From an uncultured Vicinamibacterales bacterium (GTDB lineage Bacteria; Acidobacteriota; Vicinamibacteria; Vicinamibacterales; UBA8438): a DNA stretch of 64,000 nt. The position numbers and the translations under genes are program-made. Below, one piece after another: positions 9,419 through 54,560 of the stretch. Below the pieces are notes generated by a model. It was not told where the DNA came from and searched no databases. It saw nothing but the letters and a program-made list of their open reading frames with translations. The stretch covers positions 310,001 through 374,000 of the forward strand of contig OY282382.1 of NCBI GenBank assembly GCA_958295905.1, written 5' to 3'. Numbering within the stretch: position 1 is the stretch's first letter; every line of letters starts with the position of its first letter.

Positions 9419-10750
9419 TCAGTCGATGATCCAGAGGCTCGTCTGCGGCCCGGACAGGTAGCGGGGCGGGGCGTCCGCGGCGATCAGGGTGTCCTCCTCC
9501 CGCATGATGGTGACCGGCTGGCCGTCCCATTCGGGGACGGACGCGGTGACCGCGAACTCGAGCGAGACCCAGTCGCCGTCCTTCAGGGTGAACCGCGGGT
9601 GGTCGCCGTAGCGCTCGGGCCAGTCGTGAATCGCCCACATCCCGGCGTCGTGCACCCAGTAGCCCTGGACGTGCGAGTAGACGAGCAGGTCGATGCCGGC
9701 CGCGGCGGCGCGCCGCTCGGCCGCCTGCTTGATCGCGATGCCGGTGCGGCCGACCCGCATGGCGTCGAGAATCAGCCCGGCCGCGCGGGAGGAGGCCTCG
9801 AACGCCCGCGCCAAGCCCGCGGGCGGCGCCGACTCGCCTTCGCGGAGCACGTAGGCCATCTTCTGCTGGTCGGCGACGATGCCCGACGTGCGCACCCCGA
9901 AGTCCACGTGCAACAGGTCGCCGCGCTCGATCGCCGGATCGGCCGAATCGTCGAGGCTGACGCCGCCGGCCCGCTGCAGATCGAGCGAGGCGGGGAAGTT
10001 GAACTCGAACCCGAGGCGCTTCCACTCGGCCGTGATCCAGTACTGCACGTCCATCAGGGTGGTGCGGCCGGGGGTGATGACGTCGCCGGAGAACGCGCGG
10101 CGCAGGATGTCGAACGTGGCCGTGCTGGCCTCGCGCTGGACCTCGTGCTCGGCCTCGGTGTGCACCGAGGCGTAGTCGACGACGAGCGGCTCGGACGACA
10201 CGACACGGCCGGCGCGGTCCGGCCCGAGGGTCTCCAGCAGATAGTTCTCGAGCTCGGCCGTCAGCCCGTCCGCCATGCTGATGGTTCGTGACCGGTTGAC
10301 GGCGATGCGCCGGGGGTCGCGGGCGGCCAGGTACTCGCGCAGGTGCGGCATCAGCCCCTCTTCGCCGTACGGCGTGAGGGTGTCGTAGAACCGGCGGAGA
10401 TGGCCGCTGAGGTGGGTGCCGATCGCGGTGGTGTCGAGCCCCGCGCCGGCGCCGGCATCGAAGAACAGATAGGCGTTGCGGTGGCCGTACCAGCCGGTGA
10501 CGCCATAGCCCCCGAAGAGCTCGAGCAGCGGGTCGGGCGCGTTCTCCCGACTCAGGATGATCCACAGGTCGACGTCGTGGCGGCGCATGAGCGGCAGCAG
10601 GTGCCGCCGCATCTTGTCCGCCTTGATCGTCCACTCACGCTCGGTGCGGGCGCGTATCAGCTCGGGGCCGAGCTGCGCCCCCGCCGGCGCCCCCGTCACC
10701 AGAACGAGGGCGCCCACGAGCGATACCCGTCGAAGCTGTCGAAGCGCCAT
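9419..10750 (-). CDS. Secreted M24 family metallopeptidase (Xaa-Pro aminopeptidase-like)
   Basis: 443 residues with a signal peptide (cut near AGAQ). The fold is the creatinase/aminopeptidase P type. Metal-ligand motifs are present in order: Asp in HVDFGVR, His in YSHVQGYWVHDAG, Glu in SLEFAV and Glu in IMREED. Expected reaction: release of an N-terminal residue before proline, or a related amidase reaction, with two divalent metals. It is 27 bases downstream of the sorbosone-dehydrogenase-like gene on the same strand, so the two probably share a transcript. The C-terminus ends TSLWIID. Confidence 0.88.
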   Translation of the reverse strand: MALRQLRRVSLVGALVLVTGAPAGAQLGPELIRARTEREWTIKADKMRRHLLPLMRRHDVDLWIILSRENAPDPLLELFGGYGVTGWYGHRNAYLFFDAGAGAGLDTTAIGTHLSGHLRRFYDTLTPYGEEGLMPHLREYLAARDPRRIAVNRSRTISMADGLTAELENYLLETLGPDRAGRVVSSEPLVVDYASVHTEAEHEVQREASTATFDILRRAFSGDVITPGRTTLMDVQYWITAEWKRLGFEFNFPASLDLQRAGGVSLDDSADPAIERGDLLHVDFGVRTSGIVADQQKMAYVLREGESAPPAGLARAFEASSRAAGLILDAMRVGRTGIAIKQAAERRAAAAGIDLLVYSHVQGYWVHDAGMWAIHDWPERYGDHPRFTLKDGDWVSLEFAVTASVPEWDGQPVTIMREEDTLIAADAPPRYLSGPQTSLWIID

Positions 10751-42471: not shown

Positions 42472-45400
42472 TCACGATGCAGTTGCCGCGGCGCGGGGGC
42501 GTTCCGCAGCGGAGAGGGGCGGCGGCGGCGCGGCGTCCGGCTCCACGCGGACCGTCACCACGTCGGTGTCGTAGTGCTGCTGATGACGTACCGACGACGC
42601 GTAGTGCCGCAGCAGGCGGTGCGGGAGTTCCCGCTCAATCGGCGCGTCGACGATTTCCCCGGGGCGGCCCCCGGGCCGGTCAAGACGGCTGCGGCGCGGA
42701 AGTCCCTGCCTCATCGGCACCTCGACGGTCTGGTCCCCGAACGGCGCCGTCCGGTCGTAGACATCCGCTTCATCGGCGGCGGCGATGAACCGCAGCTCGG
42801 CCGCGCCGCCGTCGCGGCGTGCAACCACGAGCAGACGCCGTCGGTCCGGCACCGCCCCCTCCCGCTGCTGGATGAGGATGAGCAGCGTCTCCTCGGCGGC
42901 CGCGCGGATCCGGCCGGTCATCGCGCCGCTCCAGCCCGCGCGGGCGGCGAACTGGGTCAGGAACTTGTCGATCTTCGGGTAGGCGTGGATGGTCAGGCTG
43001 GCCCGCAGGTGCCTGAACCCCTCGAAGCGGACCCGGAAGAACAGCGAGTAGAGGATCGGCACCACGCCGAGGATCAGCACGGTCGCGAACAGCAGCCCGA
43101 AGATGATCGCAATCGCCATCGGCTCCCACATCGGGCCGCCGCCGACCCAGAGCGGCACCAAGCCGGCGACGGTCGTGGCCGTCGTCAACAGGATCGGCCG
43201 GAGGCGCTGCTGCGTCGCTTCGAAGATCGCCCCCGCCGGGTCGAGCCCGCCCTGGTCGATCTCGATCTCGATCCGGTCGATGAGGATGATGGCGTTGTTG
43301 ATGACGATGCCGGTGAGGGCGACGCAGCCGAGCAGCGTCATGAAGCCGAAGTAGGACTGCGTGACGAGCAGCCCGGCCACCACGCCGACGAGCCCCAGCG
43401 GAATCGTCAACACGATGACGGCGACCCGCCGAATCGAGTTGAACTGGCCGACGAGCAAGAGCAGGATGATCAGCGCGGCGGCCGGAAGCTGCTCGAGGAT
43501 GGACCGGTTCGCCTGGACCGAAGCCTCTTCGTCGCCGCCGAACGCGTAGCGGTACCCCACGGGCCATCCGGCCTGCTCGGCCTCGAGCCACGGGCGGAGC
43601 TGCGCCACCACTTCGGACGGGGACACGCCCGGGGCGGGGGAGGAGGACACCGTCACCGTCCGGAGCCGGTTCCGCCGGCGGATGGTCGACGGCTCCCAGA
43701 CGACCGCGGGATCCGCCACATGGAGGAGCGGGACCGCCCGGCCGACCGCCGGGGAGTACACGTTGACGCTGTCGAACTCCGCCGCGCCGGTGTGGGCGAG
43801 CGTCGACCGGAGCACCACCGGCACGGCGTCGCCGCCCCCGCGGTACCGCGTGGCCTCGATCCCGCGGAGCGCGGTCTGCAGCGAGACCGCGACGTCCCGG
43901 CTGGTGACGCCGGCCCGGCGCGCCCGCGGCTGATCCACCTCGACCAAGATCTTCCTATTTACGCCGCCCCAGTCGTCGGCGACCGACCCGGCACCGCTGA
44001 GCGAGCTCATCCGCGCCTTCACGGTATCGACGATACCGAACAGAACGTCGTCATCGCGCCCCGACAGACGCACCTCGACAGGGGCGGCGACCGGGGGACC
44101 GAACGCCAACGGGTTGAGCCGGGCCTCGAGGTCCGGGAACTGCTTGATATAGAAGGCCTCGAGCCGCGGAATGAGGTCGGCCGCGATGACGCCGCGGCCC
44201 GTAGCGTTCAGGATCGAGAACGCCCGCCGTGGGTCGGGCGACCCGGGGCGGTGCGACGCGTAGAAGCGCGGTCCGCGGTCCCCCACGAACGTCACCCAGT
44301 TGGTCACCCCCCCCGCGGCCGGCGTCCGGCGCCCCGGCACCGCCAACTCGTCCGCGATGAACCGATCGACCGATTCCATCACCTCAATGGTGCGCTCGAT
44401 TGACGTCCCCGGCGGGAGCACGTACTCCGCCGTGAACGTCGGCTTGTCGGAGGGCGGGAAGAAGGCCCTCGGGATGAACCGGGAGCCCTGGAGCGCGAGC
44501 ACGAGCAGACCGGCGAGGGCGGCGAGCGCGAGGGCTCTGTGCCGCAGGCCGGCCAACAACAGCCGCCGGTACCAGCGGTAGAAATGTCCGCGGAAGCGTT
44601 CCGGCGTCCTGACCGGCCCGATTCTGAGGAACCGGACGCACAGCATCGGCGTCACCGTGATCGCCAGGATCCACGACGACAGGAGCGTGACGGTGACCAC
44701 GGTGAAGAGCGGAGCGGTGTACTCCCCGGTGGTCGATTGGGCCAGGAAGATCGGGAGGAACGCCGCGGCCGTCGTCAGCGACGAGACGAGCAGCGGACCG
44801 CGGAGTTCGCGCGCCGACCGGACCGCCGCATCGACCGGCCGCCGACCGCCGGCGATCCGGACCATGATCGATTCGGCCATCACGATGGCGTTGTCGATGA
44901 GCATGCCGAGCGAGATGATCATGGCCGCCAGAGTCACCTGATCAATCCCGATGCCGAGGACGGCCATCACCGGCAGCCCCGCGAGCATCGCCATCGGCAC
45001 GAGGGTCGCCACCACGAGTCCGGTCCGCAGACCGAGGAACGCCAGCGACACCGCCAGCACGATGACGACGGCCTGGAGCAGATTGACGAAGAAGCCACGC
45101 AGCAGGGTCTCTACGACCGCCGGCTGGAACGCGACGATGTCGAACTCGACGCCGACCGGGTACGCCGCCCGCAGCCGGTCCAGCGTAGCCGCGGTCTCTT
45201 CGCCGAGTGCGGTCACGTCGCCGCCGCCGCGCATCGAGACGCCGAACACGATCGCGGGCGCGCCGGAGGCGCGGACCGCGCGGCTGGGCGGATCGGCCCA
45301 GCCCCGGTGGATCTCGGCCAAGTCCTCGAGGTGGACAATCCCGGCGCGCCCGGGCGGCGTGACCACCGTGCGCCTGAGCTCGTCGAGCGACCGGAAGTCC

Positions 45401-46089
45401 CCCGACGGCTCCACCGCGATCCGCTCCGTGCCGGCGGGGACGTCGCCGCCGGGGCCGACGGTGTTTACGCTCTCCAGGATCGAACGGAGTTGGAGCGGAG
45501 AGAGCCCCAGCTCGGCGAGTTGCGCGTCGTCGTAGTCGACGTAGATCCGCTCGGGCTGCATCCCATAGATGTCCACCGCGGCGGCGTCGTCGATCAGGAG
45601 CAGCTCGTCGCGCACCTCTTCGGCCACCGTCTTCAGCTCGCGGTGCGTGTAGCCGTCGCCGGTCAGCGCCACCAGGATGCCGAAGATGTCGTCGGCGCTG
45701 TTCACCATCGGTCCGACGACGCCGGCCGGGAGGTCCCGCACCGCGCGCTGCACGCGCCGCCGCAGGTCGTCCCAGATCGGCTCCATCTCGTCGAACTCCG
45801 CCCGTACGCGGATTTGGACGAACGACATACCGGCGCGCGACGTAGAGGTGGTGGATTCGACTTCCGGCATCTGGTGAATCGCCGCCTCGATCGGCGCGGT
45901 GATCAGACGCTCCACGCGGTCGGGGCTCATGCCCGGACGGAGCGTCGTCACCTGGGCGATGCGGACCGTGAACCCGGGATCCTCGGCACGGTGCATCCCC
46001 CGGTACGCCGCCGCCCCGGCGCCGAGAGCGACGAGCAAGGCGACGACCGTGACGCGGTCCTTCTCGATGGCGGCGCGCGTTAAATCCAA
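42472..46089 (-). CDS. RND efflux permease with C-terminal RsbW/GHKL-like extension
   Basis: 1205 residues. Residues 1-about 1025 are a complete RND pump: first helix VVALLVALGAGAAAYRG, porter domains, TM4 with LGMLIDNAIVMAESI (one relay Asp kept, the second replaced by Asn), and TM10-12 with LTGIVINNAIILIDRIEIE. A typical pump ends there. Here about 180 residues follow on the cytoplasmic side: TIHAYPKIDKFLTQF, AAAEETLLILI, RRRLLVVARRDGGAAELRFI and RLLRHYASSVRHQQHYDTDV. The order of helices and strands recalls an anti-sigma/RsbW-type GHKL fold, though the N-box Asn and DxG motif are not evident. It may be a regulatory or oligomerisation module. The adaptor gene lies 231 bases upstream. Confidence 0.88.
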   Translation of the reverse strand: MDLTRAAIEKDRVTVVALLVALGAGAAAYRGMHRAEDPGFTVRIAQVTTLRPGMSPDRVERLITAPIEAAIHQMPEVESTTSTSRAGMSFVQIRVRAEFDEMEPIWDDLRRRVQRAVRDLPAGVVGPMVNSADDIFGILVALTGDGYTHRELKTVAEEVRDELLLIDDAAAVDIYGMQPERIYVDYDDAQLAELGLSPLQLRSILESVNTVGPGGDVPAGTERIAVEPSGDFRSLDELRRTVVTPPGRAGIVHLEDLAEIHRGWADPPSRAVRASGAPAIVFGVSMRGGGDVTALGEETAATLDRLRAAYPVGVEFDIVAFQPAVVETLLRGFFVNLLQAVVIVLAVSLAFLGLRTGLVVATLVPMAMLAGLPVMAVLGIGIDQVTLAAMIISLGMLIDNAIVMAESIMVRIAGGRRPVDAAVRSARELRGPLLVSSLTTAAAFLPIFLAQSTTGEYTAPLFTVVTVTLLSSWILAITVTPMLCVRFLRIGPVRTPERFRGHFYRWYRRLLLAGLRHRALALAALAGLLVLALQGSRFIPRAFFPPSDKPTFTAEYVLPPGTSIERTIEVMESVDRFIADELAVPGRRTPAAGGVTNWVTFVGDRGPRFYASHRPGSPDPRRAFSILNATGRGVIAADLIPRLEAFYIKQFPDLEARLNPLAFGPPVAAPVEVRLSGRDDDVLFGIVDTVKARMSSLSGAGSVADDWGGVNRKILVEVDQPRARRAGVTSRDVAVSLQTALRGIEATRYRGGGDAVPVVLRSTLAHTGAAEFDSVNVYSPAVGRAVPLLHVADPAVVWEPSTIRRRNRLRTVTVSSSPAPGVSPSEVVAQLRPWLEAEQAGWPVGYRYAFGGDEEASVQANRSILEQLPAAALIILLLLVGQFNSIRRVAVIVLTIPLGLVGVVAGLLVTQSYFGFMTLLGCVALTGIVINNAIILIDRIEIEIDQGGLDPAGAIFEATQQRLRPILLTTATTVAGLVPLWVGGGPMWEPMAIAIIFGLLFATVLILGVVPILYSLFFRVRFEGFRHLRASLTIHAYPKIDKFLTQFAARAGWSGAMTGRIRAAAEETLLILIQQREGAVPDRRRLLVVARRDGGAAELRFIAAADEADVYDRTAPFGDQTVEVPMRQGLPRRSRLDRPGGRPGEIVDAPIERELPHRLLRHYASSVRHQQHYDTDVVTVRVEPDAAPPPPLSAAERPRAAATAS

Positions 46090-46320: not shown

Positions 46321-47478
46321 TTAGCCGCCCGCGAGAGCCGGATCCGGAATAAGGTCGAACCGGACCTCGTCGCCGTCCCGGAGGCGGCTGACGCCGGCAA
46401 CGACGACCACCTCGCCCGCAGAGAGGCCGTCGAGAACCTCCAGATCAGCGCCGGAGAACCCGCCGCCGACAGCGACCGACCGCCGCCGCACCACGGAGCG
46501 GCCGGCCGCCGCCTCGATCACGAACACGAAGTGTCCCGTCCGATCCGCGGCGACGGCGCGCGCCGGAACGACGAGCGCTGCGGCCGACGCGTCGTCCTCA
46601 ACCGCGATAGTGACATCGGCCGTCATCCCGGACCGGATGTCCACGGAGACATCGTGGAGACGGATGGTGACAGGGAAGGTCGTGCCTGTCGCCGTCGTCG
46701 TGACTCCGATCTCGGTGACCACGCCCTCGAAACGTTCGTCCGGAACCGCACTGAAGACGGCGGACGCCGAGGCCCCTTTGCGGATCCGGCTGATCAAGGT
46801 CTCGGAGACCGTGAACCCGACCTCGGGGGCGGTACCGGAAGTGAGCATTACGACCGGGGCCCCGGGGAGGACGTGCTCGTTCACGCCGGCGGCGACGGTC
46901 GCGATGACCCCCGTGCCGGGGGCGGTCAAGCGGGTATACGCCGCCTGCCGTTCGGCCATCTCGACCCCCTTGGTCATCGACTCGACCTGCGCCCCGGCGA
47001 AGTCGACGGCGGAAATCGCGGCGTCGAGGCTGGCCCGCGCCCCGTCACCGTTCTCGTACCGACGCCAGGCGCGCTGCAGATCGGCTTCCGCGTTCACCGC
47101 TCCGGCCTGGGCCTGCCGCAGCGCCGCCCGCGCCGCCTGCACCCGCAGCTCGTAGTCGACCGGATCGAGATCCCCGATCGGATCGCCGGCCTGCACGCGG
47201 TCGCCGACGTCGACCGCCAACCGGGTGATCTTGCCGGCGACCATGAAGCTGAGCGAGGAACTCGTTTCCGTGCGCGCGACACCGGAGAACGTCCGCGTGC
47301 GTTGCGCGCCGGAGGCCTGAACCGTCGCCGTGCGCACGGGGCGCACGACCGGCGGCTCGGGCGGGACCGGATCGTTGCAGGCCATGGCGAGCGGGGCCAG
47401 CAGGCCGGCCGCCGCCGCCGCAGCCAGCGGGCGCCGCGGACGAAAGCGCGGGGATTTGCCGGGGCAGGTGGGTTTCAT
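46321..47478 (-). CDS. RND efflux periplasmic adaptor lipoprotein
   Basis: 385 residues. The ATG at 47478 overlaps the TGA of the preceding gene (ATGA), and AGGAG lies just upstream. The signal peptide ends in LAMAC, so the protein is lipid-anchored. Lipoyl halves LSFMVAGKITRLAVDVGDRV and RLTAPGTGVIATVAAGVNEH flank a short helical hairpin; beta-barrel and membrane-proximal domains follow. It would couple the permease downstream with the TolC-type channel encoded just upstream. Confidence 0.92.
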   Translation of the reverse strand: MKPTCPGKSPRFRPRRPLAAAAAAGLLAPLAMACNDPVPPEPPVVRPVRTATVQASGAQRTRTFSGVARTETSSSLSFMVAGKITRLAVDVGDRVQAGDPIGDLDPVDYELRVQAARAALRQAQAGAVNAEADLQRAWRRYENGDGARASLDAAISAVDFAGAQVESMTKGVEMAERQAAYTRLTAPGTGVIATVAAGVNEHVLPGAPVVMLTSGTAPEVGFTVSETLISRIRKGASASAVFSAVPDERFEGVVTEIGVTTTATGTTFPVTIRLHDVSVDIRSGMTADVTIAVEDDASAAALVVPARAVAADRTGHFVFVIEAAAGRSVVRRRSVAVGGGFSGADLEVLDGLSAGEVVVVAGVSRLRDGDEVRFDLIPDPALAGG

Positions 47479-49934
47479 CGACACGGTTCTCCTTCCGGTT
47501 CCGGTCTTGACGGCGTGCCGCCGGGTCGGCGGCCCGCCGCGCGGGAAAAGTCGCGAAGACGTGCGTTGAACTCGGCGATCTCCGGCGGCTCCATGAAGAA
47601 ACCGAAACGGCCGATCGCGCGCTGCACGCCCATGAGGTCAATCAGATAGTCGTAGACGGCGCCCGCTTCAAGTTGCCCGGTCATCAACGCGGTATTCTGC
47701 GCGTCGATCAGAAGGAGAGCGGGCGCATCCCCTTCGCCGTAGGCGTCCGCGACCAGCTCCAGGTTCCGACGCGCCGCTTGCGCGGCTTCGGTGGCGAGGT
47801 CGATGCCGAGGTGCGACGCGCCGGCGACATGCAGCAAGGATCGGATCCGCTGCTCGACACGCGCCGCCGCGGCCCGCCTGGCAAGGCGCAACTCGTCGAG
47901 CCCGCGTTCCGCCCGCGTCCGTTCCGCCCGGCGGGCGCCGCCGTCGAACAGCGGGAGCGCCGCCGAGAGACCGACGGTCCAAGTGAAGGGGCCCGGGGGT
48001 GTGAGCGGAAGAACACCCACCCCACTCCTGTCGACCGCACCGTACCGGAGCCCCGTCACGTCCGCCTCTGCTGCGACCGTCGGCGCCCACGACGCGCGGC
48101 GCGCCGCGAGAACCGCGCGTTCCTGCGCTGCGACGGCCGCGTCGAGCTGACGGATTTCCGGTGACTGCGCCAGCCCTTCCGCCGTCATGAACCCGCGGAA
48201 GCGCTCGAACGTCACCGCATTCCCGGCGTACTCGTCGAGCGTCGCGGGGGAGGCGAGCAGCGCGGGATCGGTCAGATCGACGCCGGCCGCCTCGAACGAC
48301 TCCTCCAGCGGCCGGTCCAGCAGCCGGTTCAGCGCGATCTCCGCGACCTCCCGTTGCGCGCGCGCTTGAACCACGGCGCGGAGGTGTTTCGCGATCTCGA
48401 TCTCCCACCGTACGACCTCCGACGCCCGGGCGACGCCGATCAGCCGGCGCGAGTCCGCCAGTTCGTGATTCGCCCGCGTGGCCGCCACGTTCTGCCGGTG
48501 GAGCCGCTCGATGGTCCGTGCGCGCAGGACGTTGAGATATCCGACGGCGGCGGTGTGCGCGACGTCGAGCCGAAGCTCCTCGCGGGCGTGCCCGCGCGAT
48601 CGCAGCAGATGCTCCTGAACCTGGACGTTGGCCCGAGCCTCCTCGGAATAGAGGACCTGGGACAACCCCAACGACGTGCCCGCGAACCAGGGCGGCCGCA
48701 CGCCGAGCGACTGCGCGACGAAATCCCGCCCCGGCGTCCCGGCGAAAGTGGACGCGGCAACCTGCGGCCGCAGCGCCGCCTGCGCGTCCCGGGCGGTCTG
48801 ACGCCCCGCCGCCACCCACTCGTCGAACGCCGCGAGATCGTGGCTGGCGAGCACCGCCCCGCGCACGGCCGACGCCAAGTTCAGGCGGCGCGGGACCGCG
48901 CGGCGTTCGTCCTGCAGCAACTCGGCCTGACTCATGACGCGCCAACCGGGGTGCACGCCGACGGCCCGGGCCGTGGCCGCGTTGAGCGCCGGGCGCTCGG
49001 CTCGGTGGAAGTCGACGGGGAGCGCGCCGGCGTCCTCGCCAAGCAGGATGCGCTGTACGTGGGAGGCGATCCGCCGCGCGAGCCTCCGGGGTTCCGCGTC
49101 CCGGTAGAGGCTCATCAACAGGCCGCGCTCGACGTCGCTCCGCCCCCAACAGGAAAAGGTGGGCAGCCGCCGATCGATCAGGGCGCGGATCAGCCGATCG
49201 AAATCCCCGGGCGGAAGCTGTGTGAGCGGAGTGACGTAGACCGCCTCGGCCCCGGCCGGAATCGCGGCGATCGCAGCCTCCAAGGACGACCCCACGCCGA
49301 TGATCTCCGCCTCGATACCGAGGGCCGCCGCCCGCCGCCTCAGGTTGGTCCCCATCACCGGCGTGGCGGCCAGCAGCGTCTCGTTCACCAGGTAAGCGAG
49401 GCGGGCGAACGGCGCCACCTGCCGGAAGCGGCGGATCTCTTCCGAATGGTCGGCGGAGAAAGCGACGTAGTTCAGATTGGACACGCCGCTCACCCGCACG
49501 CCGTCGGCGTTCCGCACGATCGGAAAACCCTGCGACTCGGGGTCGAGCACGAACGCGGATACGACGGGCTTCGGCGGAACGCCCCGGCCGACGATCTGAC
49601 TCGACGACACCGGGCCGGCCGTCAGCACCAGGTCGACGTCCGGATCCGCCAGCAACGCATCCACTGCCCGCCGCGTTCCGTCGACCGTCCAGTCGGCAAC
49701 CCGCCGTTTCTCCGCCGGCAGAATCACCGCGAACCGCGGGCCGAGAAGATCGGCGATCTCGTGCGCAAACCGCCGCTGCATGTCGTCGGTGCTGTCCCCG
49801 GGGCCGTCGGCCACGATGCCGATGACGCAGGGGGCGCAAGTCATCTGCGCGGCGGTCGGCCGGGCGGGCGTGGCCAACGCGGCGGCCGCGAGCAGGACGG
49901 CCGCAACCCGGCGCGCGTCACCTCCCATCGCCAC
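47475..49934 (-). CDS. Fusion of ABC-type substrate-binding domain with TolC-family outer-membrane channel
   Basis: 819 residues from a GTG at 49934 (GGGAG nine bases upstream); an ATG at 49928 is an alternative. After a signal peptide, residues about 30-340 resemble the ABC_sub_bind family (PF04392), a type I periplasmic-binding fold: VIGIVADGPGDSTDDMQRRF, DVDLVLTAGPVSSSQIVGRG, GAEAVYVTPLTQLPPGDFDR, GVHPGWRVMSQAELLQ. The remaining 450 residues are two OEP repeats of a TolC channel with long helices (YLNVLRARTIERLHRQNVAA, LIDAQNTALMTGQLEAGAVY). A binding domain tethered to the channel could sense or hand over substrate. First gene of the operon, with a sigma54-type promoter upstream. Confidence 0.88.
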   Translation of the reverse strand: MAMGGDARRVAAVLLAAAALATPARPTAAQMTCAPCVIGIVADGPGDSTDDMQRRFAHEIADLLGPRFAVILPAEKRRVADWTVDGTRRAVDALLADPDVDLVLTAGPVSSSQIVGRGVPPKPVVSAFVLDPESQGFPIVRNADGVRVSGVSNLNYVAFSADHSEEIRRFRQVAPFARLAYLVNETLLAATPVMGTNLRRRAAALGIEAEIIGVGSSLEAAIAAIPAGAEAVYVTPLTQLPPGDFDRLIRALIDRRLPTFSCWGRSDVERGLLMSLYRDAEPRRLARRIASHVQRILLGEDAGALPVDFHRAERPALNAATARAVGVHPGWRVMSQAELLQDERRAVPRRLNLASAVRGAVLASHDLAAFDEWVAAGRQTARDAQAALRPQVAASTFAGTPGRDFVAQSLGVRPPWFAGTSLGLSQVLYSEEARANVQVQEHLLRSRGHAREELRLDVAHTAAVGYLNVLRARTIERLHRQNVAATRANHELADSRRLIGVARASEVVRWEIEIAKHLRAVVQARAQREVAEIALNRLLDRPLEESFEAAGVDLTDPALLASPATLDEYAGNAVTFERFRGFMTAEGLAQSPEIRQLDAAVAAQERAVLAARRASWAPTVAAEADVTGLRYGAVDRSGVGVLPLTPPGPFTWTVGLSAALPLFDGGARRAERTRAERGLDELRLARRAAAARVEQRIRSLLHVAGASHLGIDLATEAAQAARRNLELVADAYGEGDAPALLLIDAQNTALMTGQLEAGAVYDYLIDLMGVQRAIGRFGFFMEPPEIAEFNARLRDFSRAAGRRPGGTPSRPEPEGEPCR

Positions 49935-50053
49935 GCTCAGCAGCTCCCGTCCCAGAAGCGGCGCGGGCCGGTGGCGGAGTGCCGGTGCCCGCACCGCTCA
50001 CGTGCGGCGCCCGCGAAGACGACGGTCCGAGTCCCGCGCATGCGCTGCATGTT

Positions 50054-50069
50054 TGCAATACTCGCGCCA
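50054..50069 (-). promoter_or_regulatory. Sigma54-type promoter of the efflux operon
   Basis: Minus strand TGGCGCGAGTATTGCA. It matches TGGCACG-N4-TTGCW with one change and has the required GG-N10-GC spacing. The predicted start is near 50043, about 110 bases before the first gene. Confidence 0.82.
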
Positions 50070-50134
50070 CCTCCAGAGCGCCTTTGGATTTCAGTTCATA
50101 TAGTGGGCAATACGATGACCTCGAAGGCCGTTCG

Positions 50135-50151
50135 TGTTGCCAAGCGCAACA
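50135..50151. promoter_or_regulatory. Dyad site 1 (putative activator binding site)
   Basis: TGTTGC-CAAGC-GCAACA, a perfect 6-bp inverted repeat with 5-bp spacer, centred about 100 bases upstream of the predicted sigma54 start. Confidence 0.7.
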
Positions 50152-50218
50152 GTTGGATCATCGGCGGGTCGTCTTGATGGCAGTTCTCTCCCTATCTGCG
50201 GGGGGAATCGGCGCACCG

Positions 50219-50235
50219 TGTTGCGGTGTGCGACA
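50219..50235. promoter_or_regulatory. Dyad site 2 (putative activator binding site)
   Basis: TGTTGC-GGTGT-GCGACA, same layout as site 1 with one arm base changed. Centre-to-centre distance is 84 bases, eight helical turns, so both sites face the same side. Confidence 0.7.
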
Positions 50236-50367
50236 GTATGCTATTCTGCGCCGGCCATGGGCCCTGCCAAGGCGGATCGGGTGGAATCGCCGCGTGGCGG
50301 CGCGCCGCGGTGGGCTGACGGAGGTGGCGAAACACCAAGCCCTCTGGTCGAGGAGACGGGGAGAACA

Positions 50368-52680
50368 GTGACGACCAACCCGAGGTTGCTGATTGTTGGA
50401 GTTCATCCCGGGATCGCCGGCCTGGAGACCGGTCTGGCCGACCTCGGATATACCGTCGCCACCGTTCCGTCCGGGCAGCAGGCCGTTGCGGAAGCAACCG
50501 AGGCGCGGCCCGATCTGGTGGTGATCGAGCTGCGGCTGGGAGGCGGGATCGGCGGCATCGAGGCGGCCGGACAGTTCCGGACCCGGTTCGACGTGCCGGT
50601 GATATTTCTCGCCGATGAAGCCGCGGCGAGTCTCTGGCCCCGGGCCCGGATGACGGACCCGTTCGGTTGCCTGCCGAAGTCGGTCATGGCGCGAGAATTG
50701 CAGAGGAGTATCGACGCCGCCCTCTCCCTGCATGATCGCGAAACGAGCTTCAGGAAACACGAGCGGCGGATCGAGCAGGAAGCATTGGAATCGCGACAGG
50801 AGCTCAAGAAGCTTCGAGCGGATGTGAAGCTCATGACAAGCATCTTCGATTCCGTCTCTGACGGTGTCGTGGTGATGAGTTCGGATGGAGAATTCCTGCT
50901 CGTGAATTCGAACGCCGAGCGAATCGCCGGCATGGGGGCGACGGAAGGCGCTCTGTCTGACTTGGGCACACGATACGGCACGTATTACCTCGACGGAGAA
51001 ACGCCCGTTTCCTCGGAGGATCTGCCGCTCGTGCGCGCCATACGGGGGGAATCGCTGGACGACGTCGAGCTTCTGATACGCAATCAGCAACGACCCCAGG
51101 GAGTCTGCATCAGTATCAGCGCGAGGCCGCTGAGCGCGGGGTCCGGCGCGGAAGGTGGCTTGATCATGTTCCGCGACGTCACCAAGCTCAAGACTGCGGA
51201 GGCCAAGTTACTGGAGAAGATGCGGGAACTCCAAGATCAGGCCGCGCTCATGGGAACCATCTTCCATTCCCTCAGTGACGGCGTTGTCGTCTGCGGGGCC
51301 GCTGGAGAGTTGCTCGTTTCCACTCCGAGTGCGGAACGCATTGCGGGCATTGCGGGTCCCGGCACAAGTCCTGATGAATGGTCCACCGAATACGGCATTT
51401 TCCTTCCAGACGAGGAGACGCCGTTTCCGGCGGAAGATCTGCCGATGGTACGTGCCCTGAGAGGCGAGGCGACGAACGACGTCGAGCTGTTCGTGCGTAA
51501 CGCAAGGATCCCCGAAGGCGCCTTCGTCACCATGAGCGGAAGACCGCTGAAGGAAGGCACGAACGAGGTCAAAGGGGGCGTCGTCGTGCTCCGCGACGTG
51601 ACCGCGCACGTCCGCCGGGAACAGGCGCTGACGCAGGCGTTCTCCCTCGGAAAACTGGAGGTCCTCGATACGGTACTCCACAATATCGGCAACGCCATCA
51701 ACAGTGTCTCGGTGGGGCTGGAAACCATTGACGCGGAGCTGCGGCAGAACCAAGTCGCGGATCGGCTCTCCGCCGTTGCGGAGGCGCTGGAGGCGCATCG
51801 AAGCGACTGGATCACGTATTTGGACACGGACACGCAAGGCCGGAAGGTCATGCCGTTCATCATCGCTCTGGCCGCGGACCTTGCCAAACAGAATCAATGG
51901 TTGCTGCAGATCACGGGTCGAGTCGGCGCGCGGGTGTCGCACATCGTCGACATCATCCGGACCCAGAAGGCGTTAGACGCTGGTTCCATGGGACAAAAAA
52001 TCGTCAATCCGCAAGAATCGATCACCGCGGCGGTCAAGGTTCTGGCTGATTCACTGGAGACGAGAGGCATCAAGGTGCACGTCGATTTCGATCGTGGACA
52101 GGCGCAGACCGAGATCCAGATTCACGAGAGCAGATTTCATCAAGTGCTGGTCAATCTCATCAAGAATTCGATGGAAGCGATCGATGCTCTTGCGGCGTCG
52201 GCCGGACTCGACGACCCCCATATCCGGGTCCGCTACTATCACCGGGAAGACTACCTGATAATCGACGTGGTCGATAACGGCATCGGGATTGACGAGGCGC
52301 ACACCCGGTTGATCTTCGGCGCCGGCTACACCACGAAGACGGCGGGGAGGGGGCTCGGGCTCCATTCCGCCGCGAATTTCGTCATCGGTACCGGCGGCCG
52401 GATAATCGCGTTGAGCGAGGGCATCGGCAAGGGAGCGACCATGCGGGTCATGCTGCGACGTTCCGCCGTTGCCCCCGTTCCCCCCCAAGCGCCCCGGGTG
52501 GACGCGGGGGGGGGACTCCAAGGGGGACTCCCGCGCATAAGGAGCCCCCGCTTGACCTGTAGCGCGACGGCCTCTCTTTACGGTCACCCGGACAGGTCGT
52601 CTCAGATCGTCCCCGGCCGAATCCCCTCAGCGAGCACAAGGGAATGCAATCGAAAGTTCACAGAAGCTGCAGAGTACTGA
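50368..52680 (+). CDS. PAS histidine kinase with N-terminal pseudo-receiver
   Basis: 770 residues from a GTG at 50368 after GGGGAGAACA; upstream starts to 50134 are open but lack support. Residues 1-125 look like a receiver domain, but the phospho-acceptor is Glu54 (LVVIELRLGG) and the N-terminal acidic pair is missing. A coiled coil leads to two tandem PAS domains (MTSIFDSVSDGVVVMSSDGE and MGTIFHSLSDGVVVCGAAGE). The H-box is VLHNIGNAINSVSVGLET with His438; the ATPase has NLIKNSMEAID, VVDNGIGID and TKTAGRGLGLHSA. It should phosphorylate the downstream regulator. A run of nine G at 52506-52514 near the 3' end probably alters the C-terminus. Confidence 0.9.
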   Translation: MTTNPRLLIVGVHPGIAGLETGLADLGYTVATVPSGQQAVAEATEARPDLVVIELRLGGGIGGIEAAGQFRTRFDVPVIFLADEAAASLWPRARMTDPFGCLPKSVMARELQRSIDAALSLHDRETSFRKHERRIEQEALESRQELKKLRADVKLMTSIFDSVSDGVVVMSSDGEFLLVNSNAERIAGMGATEGALSDLGTRYGTYYLDGETPVSSEDLPLVRAIRGESLDDVELLIRNQQRPQGVCISISARPLSAGSGAEGGLIMFRDVTKLKTAEAKLLEKMRELQDQAALMGTIFHSLSDGVVVCGAAGELLVSTPSAERIAGIAGPGTSPDEWSTEYGIFLPDEETPFPAEDLPMVRALRGEATNDVELFVRNARIPEGAFVTMSGRPLKEGTNEVKGGVVVLRDVTAHVRREQALTQAFSLGKLEVLDTVLHNIGNAINSVSVGLETIDAELRQNQVADRLSAVAEALEAHRSDWITYLDTDTQGRKVMPFIIALAADLAKQNQWLLQITGRVGARVSHIVDIIRTQKALDAGSMGQKIVNPQESITAAVKVLADSLETRGIKVHVDFDRGQAQTEIQIHESRFHQVLVNLIKNSMEAIDALAASAGLDDPHIRVRYYHREDYLIIDVVDNGIGIDEAHTRLIFGAGYTTKTAGRGLGLHSAANFVIGTGGRIIALSEGIGKGATMRVMLRRSAVAPVPPQAPRVDAGGGLQGGLPRIRSPRLTCSATASLYGHPDRSSQIVPGRIPSASTRECNRKFTEAAEY

Positions 52681-54560
52681 TCGTCGATGATCAGGAGGAT
52701 ATCCATCAGGACTTCAAGGAGATGTTGAAGCCTGGATTCGACAAATCAACAGACGACCTCGCGGCCGCCTTCCTGCCGAGAGAGACCGACCGGAGATTTC
52801 TGCCCGAGTTCGAGCTTATGCATGCGGGGAGCGGAGAAGAAGCATGCGATCTCATACGCAGGCAGACGCGGCGGAGCCTGCCCGTCGCCCTCGCCTACGT
52901 CGACATCAGAATGCCGCCGGGTATGGACGGAATCGAAACCATCCGCCGAATAAGGGAAATCGACCGCAATGTCGAGATCGTCCTGATGACCGCGTACACC
53001 GACGTGCCGTTGGCCGAGATCGTCCACGAGATGGAACTGCTTCATAAGTTGTTGTACATCAGAAAGCCGGTCACGCGCGACGAGATTCAGCAAATCAGCT
53101 CTGCGCTGGTGGCGAAGTGGAATCTGGAGCGGGAGGTGGAGGATGGACGCCGGGAGCTCCTCGCCAGTCATCGAAGGCTGGAAGCGGTAATCGACACCAT
53201 CGAAGAGGCGATTGCGATGTACGACACCGAGGAACGCTTGGTGTTCGCGAACCGGTGGTACACGAAACTGATGAACCGGACGGAAGACGAGCTGAAGAAG
53301 ATGTCGGGGGAGAGCGCCTGGCAGCTTTGGGAGGAGCGGTTCCGGGAACAAAACCGACCCGATCCCGCGTCGCCCGGGGGGTCCGCCGCCGCCGGGCGCG
53401 GGGAGAGCAGCGTGGTGGAAATCCCCTCGGATGAGCCGCCGGAACGCCGGCTGTTCCTCAGGAGGAAGAGACCGGTGCTGAGCGGCGGCGGAGCGGCCCT
53501 GGGGGACTTGTATGTGTACCGGGACGTGTCCAAGGACGCCGAGTACGAACGGGTCAAGGCCGAAGTGCTGCGCCTGCGCGCGGAGGTCGAGGTGGAGACG
53601 GCGTGGGCCGTCGAGGGGATGGTGGGATCCAGCGCGGAAATGCGGGAGGTGTATGCGCTGACGAAGCGCGCGGCGGGAAGCGACATCAGCGTCCTCATTC
53701 GCGGCGACAGCGGAACCGGCAAGGAATTGTTGGCGAGGGCTCTGCATTTCGGAGGCCCGCGCAAGACGGGTCCGTTCGTGGCGATCAATTGCGCGGCGAT
53801 TCCGGAGACGCTCATCGAAAGCGAGCTGTTCGGGCATGAGCGGGGTGCGTTCACCGGCGCGACGGGACGCAGGGCGGGGTGCTTCGAGCGGGCTCAAGGA
53901 GGAACCCTCCTGCTGGACGAAATCGTCGACATGCCGGCGACGTTGCAGAGCAAGCTGTTGCGCGTACTGCAGGAGCGGGAAATCCAACGGGTCGGCGGCG
54001 CCTCGACGGTGCCGGTCGACGTGCGGGTGATCGCGGCGACCAACCGGAGTCTGGAGGCGGCGATAGGGGCCGGGACGTTCCGCGTGGATCTGTACTATCG
54101 CATCGCGGCGTTCCCCATCACGATTCCCGCGCTCACGGAGCGCCGTGACGACATCCCGCTGCTGGTCGACCACTTCGTGAAGGAAAGCGCCGCGCGCAAC
54201 AACAAACCGATGGACGGGGTTTCCAGCGGGGCGTTACGGCTGTTGCTGCAGTACGAATGGCCCGGCAACGTCCGCGAACTGCAAGGCATCATCGAGCGCG
54301 CCGTGCTGTTGGAGACGACGAACGTGCTGCAGGTGGGCAGCCTGCCGTCCCGGTTCGGGGCGGTCGGGCAGGCCGACCGCCCCGCGGGCGAGCTGTGGCT
54401 GGCGGAAGTCGAGCGTCAAGCGATAGTCCGCGCGCTGAAGGCATCGGGCAACAACGTCACGCGGGCGGCGCGGGCCCTCGGCATCAACCGATCCACCCTG
54501 CATCGGAAACTGAAGAATCACGATCTCAGACGCCCCGGCGACGGCGACGGCTCGGCGTGA
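52644..54560 (+). CDS. NtrC-type sigma54-dependent response regulator (REC-PAS-AAA-HTH)
   Basis: 638 residues. Receiver domain with [11 protein letters not shown], an insertion of about 30 residues after the first helix, phospho-Asp87 in [12 protein letters not shown] and the Lys in IRKPVT. A PAS-like domain follows ([20 protein letters not shown]). The AAA+ module has Walker A GDSGTGKE (354-361), the sigma54-contacting loop GAFTGA (401-406) and Walker [10 protein letters not shown] Fis-type helix-turn-helix ends it ([20 protein letters not shown]). It would activate the divergent sigma54 promoter. Its start overlaps the annotated kinase end by 37 bases. Confidence 0.95.

Follow-up and report, generated by a model that had tools for sequence, protein, structure and literature searches.

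Related systems

The arrangement closest to the one described here is the NtrC-type enhancer of glnA. NtrC is a two-component AAA+ activator with a Fis-type helix-turn-helix (HTH) that recognises a 17-bp dyad with a 5-bp spacer, TGCACC-N5-GGTGCA, and two such enhancer sites lie ~100-200 bp upstream of a -24/-12 promoter. The locus analysed here, part of a 64,000-bp stretch of DNA from an uncultured Vicinamibacterales bacterium (hereafter the window), has the same layout. It differs from NtrC/glnA in its half-site, GTYGC, in a regulator whose receiver and AAA+ domain are separated by a PAS domain, and in its presumed target, an efflux operon. The regulator falls well short of NtrC proper (348.9 versus 558.6 bits for the TIGR01818 equivalog). 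Its best NCBIfam score is to AtoC (380 bits) and its best PDB sequence match is ZraR (1ojl), over the AAA+ and HTH domains. Unlike members of the AtoC/ZraR group, however, it lies far under their equivalog cut-offs (714 and 760 bits), and the match does not include the receiver-PAS part. The regulator is placed in the NtrC superfamily, below every equivalog cut-off shown.

The same outer letters (TGT...ACA) are found in the upstream sites of two other sigma54 activators. The NifA site is quoted as TGT-N10-ACA in PMC6296734, which also describes the CbrB subsites, TGTTAC and GTAACA, as non-palindromic. In contrast, the window dyad reads TGT-N11-ACA, and the architecture of the regulator is different.

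A further point of comparison is provided by sponge symbionts. Poribacteria, Latescibacterota and Acidobacteriota of sponges are described as rich in eukaryotic-like repeats (PMC8163846), and Calx-beta domains as enriched in sponge symbionts (PMC9531527). Relatives of the regulator in those phyla sit before Calx-beta, Ig-like, cadherin and LRR proteins, whereas the window's own target is the efflux operon. The sponge-symbiont passages and searches consulted here describe no sigma54 circuit for such repeats. Our literature searches found no paper that spells out a GTYGC-N5-GCRAC-type dyad, and none that relevantly joins sigma54, sponge and Poribacteria. While the mechanism is classical, the regulator family, its site and its breadth appear to be undescribed.

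Promoter and dyads

The putative sigma54 (-24/-12) promoter TGGCGCGAGTATTGCA lies on the minus strand at 50054-50069, with transcription predicted to start near 50043. Read from 50069 down to 50054, it is TGGCGCG-AGTA-TTGCA, which keeps the GG-N10-GC spacing with consensus flanks and agrees with the original prediction that it fits sigma54 rules. Scored with hand-set sigma54 weights, it is the joint top of the window, tied only with a string at 50687, and the strict pattern TGGCRCGN4TTGCA has four matches in the 6,297,210-bp genome, 50054-50069 among them. The same genome encodes RpoN (PF04552, E=4.6e-63), which supports the sigma54 reading of the site. A composition-based gene caller placed no gene in 49994-52644, where it missed the kinase as well, and by its scoring the open reading frames that cross the intergenic stretch are all negative, except for the end of the outer-membrane protein gene.

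The equally scoring string, TGGCGCGAGAATTGCA at 50687-50702 (plus strand), means that two of the four strict genome matches are less than 650 bp apart. We set it aside as a promoter, since it lies within the codons of the kinase, points into this gene and looks like a coding coincidence.

Upstream of the promoter, two candidate enhancer dyads are located at 50135-50151 (TGTTGCCAAGCGCAACA; centre ~-100, perfectly symmetrical) and 50219-50235 (TGTTGCGGTGTGCGACA; centre ~-184, one mismatch to symmetry), with the cores GTTGC-N5-GCAAC and GTTGC-N5-GCGAC, respectively. This bears out the claim of two TGTTGC-N5-GCRACA dyads about 100 and 184 bp upstream of the predicted start, as well as their 84-bp spacing, which amounts to 8.00 helical turns between centres. 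The helical phasing suggested by this spacing does not hold as a conserved rule, however. In relatives, the dyads are 18-19, 72-73, 82, 94, 109, 113 or 145 bp apart, and with a range of 18 to 145 bp and beyond we dropped whole-turn spacing as a conserved feature. The commoner pattern is a proximal dyad at ~-75 to -140 and a distal dyad or pair at ~-160 to -270 from the first base of the promoter.

The genome scan that had been suggested as a check found TGTTGCN5GCRACA at three places in 6,297,210 bp, two of them in the window. Here and for the promoter, genome-wide counts are from pattern searches, not matrix scans. The promoter combined with GTYGCN5GCRAC at a gap of 52-82 bp occurs once in 29 genomes, namely in the window, and the source genome contains no match at a gap of 83-113 bp. 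Because the elements are individually rare and their joint arrangement is found only once in 29 genomes, they are likely to be more than chance.

The third site, at 3372244, has a weak neighbour at 57 bp and no sigma54 site nearby in 18 kb, and we attribute it to chance. Five of the genome's other dyads with at most one mismatch, inspected over ~550 bp on either side, lack a good sigma54 site at the usual enhancer distance, and two of these five have an identical dyad string. One of the five, at 2060086, has a sigma54 match scoring 16.3, but this is ~500 bp away.

Genes of the locus

The promoter faces a run of three genes on the minus strand, which together encode a tripartite RND efflux system. 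The first encodes a TolC-type outer-membrane efflux protein (OEP; 47475-49994, E=9e-28) and overlaps by 10 bp with the gene for an RND periplasmic adaptor, or membrane fusion protein (46321-47484; RND_mfp, 210 bits, above cut-off). An AcrB-type RND permease follows (42472-46089; ACR_tran, E=1.9e-151).

On the plus strand, a histidine kinase (50368-52680) diverges from the operon. It contains a receiver-like domain, two PAS-like regions and HATPase_c, and is read from a GTG start after GGGGAG. Behind it lies the presumed dyad binder, an NtrC-family sigma54 response regulator (52644-54560) consisting of receiver, PAS, sigma54 AAA+ domain with GAFTGA, and Fis-type HTH (Response_reg E=1.2e-11, Sigma54_activat E=7.3e-69, HTH_8 E=1.6e-14). 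The alignment of seven orthologues shows its phosphorylation pocket (D15/D16, D87, T116, K141) to be invariant. Pfam and the alignment agree with the original prediction in that an NtrC-family gene with GAFTGA is nearby, but the activator is not the direct divergent neighbour of the operon, a position taken by the kinase.

Recurrence beside orthologous regulators

Genome contigs were scanned for orthologues with the receiver-PAS part of the regulator as query. The best 80 matches listed include more than 50 good orthologues, and the metagenome-assembled genomes with these orthologues are labelled Acidobacteria, Latescibacterota, Gemmatimonadota, Poribacteria, Deltaproteobacteria, Binatia and one Gammaproteobacterium. 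In most of the related loci, a kinase of this kind directly precedes the regulator. The exact dyad GTTGCN5GCAAC occurs 10 times in 23.9 kb of post-regulator DNA (450 bp from each of 55 orthologous loci) and 3 times in the remaining 848 kb, an enrichment of ~120-fold after the regulator gene. A sigma54 site together with a dyad is present in 15 of the 55 post-regulator stretches, compared with 2 of 1205 random windows; only these 15 related loci pass both thresholds, and the 55 are not independent, as many are closely related and several are near-copies. Taken together, the recurrence of the same dyad beside orthologous regulators in other phyla argues for a link between this regulator family and this dyad and for the predicted role of the dyads as an NtrC-type enhancer.

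Because the dyad motif came from the window itself, we also made an unbiased palindrome scan, with all 5-bp half-sites and spacers of 0-20, of the post-regulator stretches other than those of the window and the same-genus locus. GTCGC-N5-GCGAC ranked first, followed by its shifted form TCGCA-N3-TGCGA and, in third place, GTTGC-N5-GCAAC, which gives the consensus GTYGC-N5-GCRAC. A symmetric matrix built from 33 sites of other loci, two from the same-genus genome, ranks the window dyads first (50135-50151, 17.3 bits) and second (50219-50235, 14.7 bits) of the 64 kb, with the next site at 12.4 bits. Background sequence from the family and from the genome itself (353 kb) contains two sites that reach 14.5 bits. 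As the 33 sites were picked by their likeness to the core GTTGCN5GCAAC, the matrix, unlike the palindrome scan, is not fully independent and lends support rather than proof.

Elsewhere, the promoter stands for the most part in front of genes for giant repeat proteins (Calx-beta, Ig-like, cadherin, LRR) or of the regulator gene. The second placement, seen in six loci (L082, L085, L087, L091, L097, L120) at ~95 bp ahead of the point where the regulator match begins, suggests autoregulation. In a regulator tree, the window groups with Vicinamibacteria (94/93), and rows from Gemmatimonadota and Latescibacterota are interspersed with one another, possibly through transfer or mis-binning. The genomes with regulator and site look mostly sponge-associated: going by their names, bins such as RHO, COS and IRC would correspond to sponges sampled in PMC8163846 (Rhopaloeides, Coscinoderma and Ircinia).

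Relatives of the same genus and family

Seven of the same-family genomes searched carry an orthologue of the regulator, with 54-58% identity. In the same-genus genome G001 (L012), kinase, short regulator and full regulator come first, followed by a 425-bp gap and then a downstream gene run. The gap contains dyads at 9999 and 10144, with two mismatches each, and the best sigma54 site of the contig, GGGCATGGTTCTTGCT at 10249. It is followed by patatin-like, desaturase-like and methyltransferase-like genes (labels from a reading of the translations) and then by the orthologous efflux genes, all co-directional. Promoter and dyads therefore go with the efflux genes in both genomes, whose gene orders differ. 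Efflux is seen as the putative target in only two genomes, that of the window and G001. In G023, the efflux operon is not located beside the regulator, and no comparable sigma54 site or dyad is present in the 448 bp covered upstream of the operon.

Four other relatives (G012, G026, G018, G002) have a sigma54 site, mostly ...GGTTCTTGC, ahead of a giant gene. Calx-beta repeats are recognised by Pfam in the giant genes of G012 and G026 and, in G018, in a neighbouring giant gene; the giant gene of G002 (L079) matches the Calx protein of G026. The dyads of these four are weaker, and in several relatives within the Vicinamibacteria they are degenerate.

The short regulator of G001 (L012:7144-7959) has a receiver and an HTH and lacks the AAA+ domain; its receiver is 52% identical to that of the window regulator. 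In Vicinamibacterial regulators beside Calx-beta genes (L079, L080, L083, L086, L088), GAFTGA is replaced by GAFSGA; the two efflux-linked regulators retain GAFTGA. Very large genes (~1,900-2,600 codons) with Calx-beta repeats also lie near the kinase or regulator genes at L032, L033, L035, L037 and L050 of same-family genomes.

Proposed mechanism and alternatives

The elements, the domains, RpoN and the recurrence of dyad and promoter beside orthologous regulators are visible in the DNA itself, and phosphorylation, binding, looping, the start site and efflux as the output are inferred. We consider it very probable that the locus is a classical sigma54 enhancer-promoter, in which the regulator on its two dyads switches on the efflux operon; the two paired dyads are most likely bound by the two-component regulator. 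Upon some signal, the kinase (50368-52680) would phosphorylate the regulator (52644-54560), whose Fis-type HTH would bind the two GTYGC-N5-GCRAC dyads at ~-100 and -184. Here, the regulator would assemble as an AAA+ ring, the intervening DNA would loop, and the GAFTGA loops would remodel the sigma54-RNA polymerase waiting at 50054-50069. Transcription would then start near 50043 and proceed into the genes for outer-membrane protein, adaptor and RND permease.

Alternatively, the dyads could be operators of a repressor, or of an autorepressing regulator, acting on sigma70-type promoters, with the sigma54-like site being coincidental. The promoter could be that of the divergent kinase gene or a leftward sigma70-like sequence, TTGGCA-N16-CAGAAT (50270-50243, minus strand), which faces the same efflux operon, matches at 9 of 12 positions where shuffles give 0.1, and has the distal dyad just downstream, a usual operator position. 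The intergenic DNA around this match shows low conservation. A repressor would, however, leave unexplained both the GAFTGA/AAA+ regulator and the joint occurrence of sigma54 sites and dyads after orthologous regulator genes in other phyla, and we regard it as very unlikely.

The chance is slimmer still that promoter and dyads are real and that they serve another of the genome's sigma54 activators instead of the adjacent one. There are thirteen PF00158 matches in the genome, ~ten of them strong, so that candidates exist; yet the dyad tracks orthologues of the adjacent regulator across phyla, and the HTH motif N-[VIL]-T-x-A-A-x-x-L-G-I is, wherever a match was found in these orthologues, nearly the same as in the window. 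Least probable, close to negligible, is a chance resemblance with no regulatory role. Sigma54-like strings of this quality do arise by chance, since an equally good 16-mer sits in the kinase reading frame at 50687-50702, but this would account neither for the joint rarity of the elements genome-wide nor for their recurrence in other phyla.

Wider implications

What is new under the preferred reading, a sigma54 enhancer-promoter served by the adjacent regulator, is a block of regulator, site and promoter that recurs in different phyla, for the most part ahead of giant repeat proteins, and has an efflux target in this lineage. Control of the efflux operon would be a local variant, which one genome of the same genus shares. 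More tentatively, and with chances we put somewhat short of even, animal-associated, mostly sponge-associated, bacteria of several phyla may share a sigma54 two-component module that has a GTYGC-N5-GCRAC enhancer of its own and controls host-facing functions. As part of the same tentative proposal, these functions would usually be giant surface proteins with eukaryotic-like repeats, and the efflux operon in this lineage. If true, the symbiotic surface of these bacteria would be under a common regulatory switch. Gene regulation in uncultured sponge-associated bacteria seems to be little known. Here, sequence gives the regulator, its DNA site and the type of promoter in several phyla. This makes it possible to predict regulons and to test reporters in heterologous hosts, also for the giant repeat proteins presumed to be host-facing.

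Additional features of the efflux proteins

Two of the efflux proteins have unusual ends. The permease extends ~185 aa past the AcrB profile at its C-terminus (42472-43035, minus strand), with a weak HATPase_c_2 match (13.7 bits, E=0.065). The OEP carries an N-terminal ABC_sub_bind-like region (PF04392, 19.8 bits, sub-threshold, ~230 aa aligned) and is possibly a ligand-binding efflux factor. This fusion is kept in same-family genomes.
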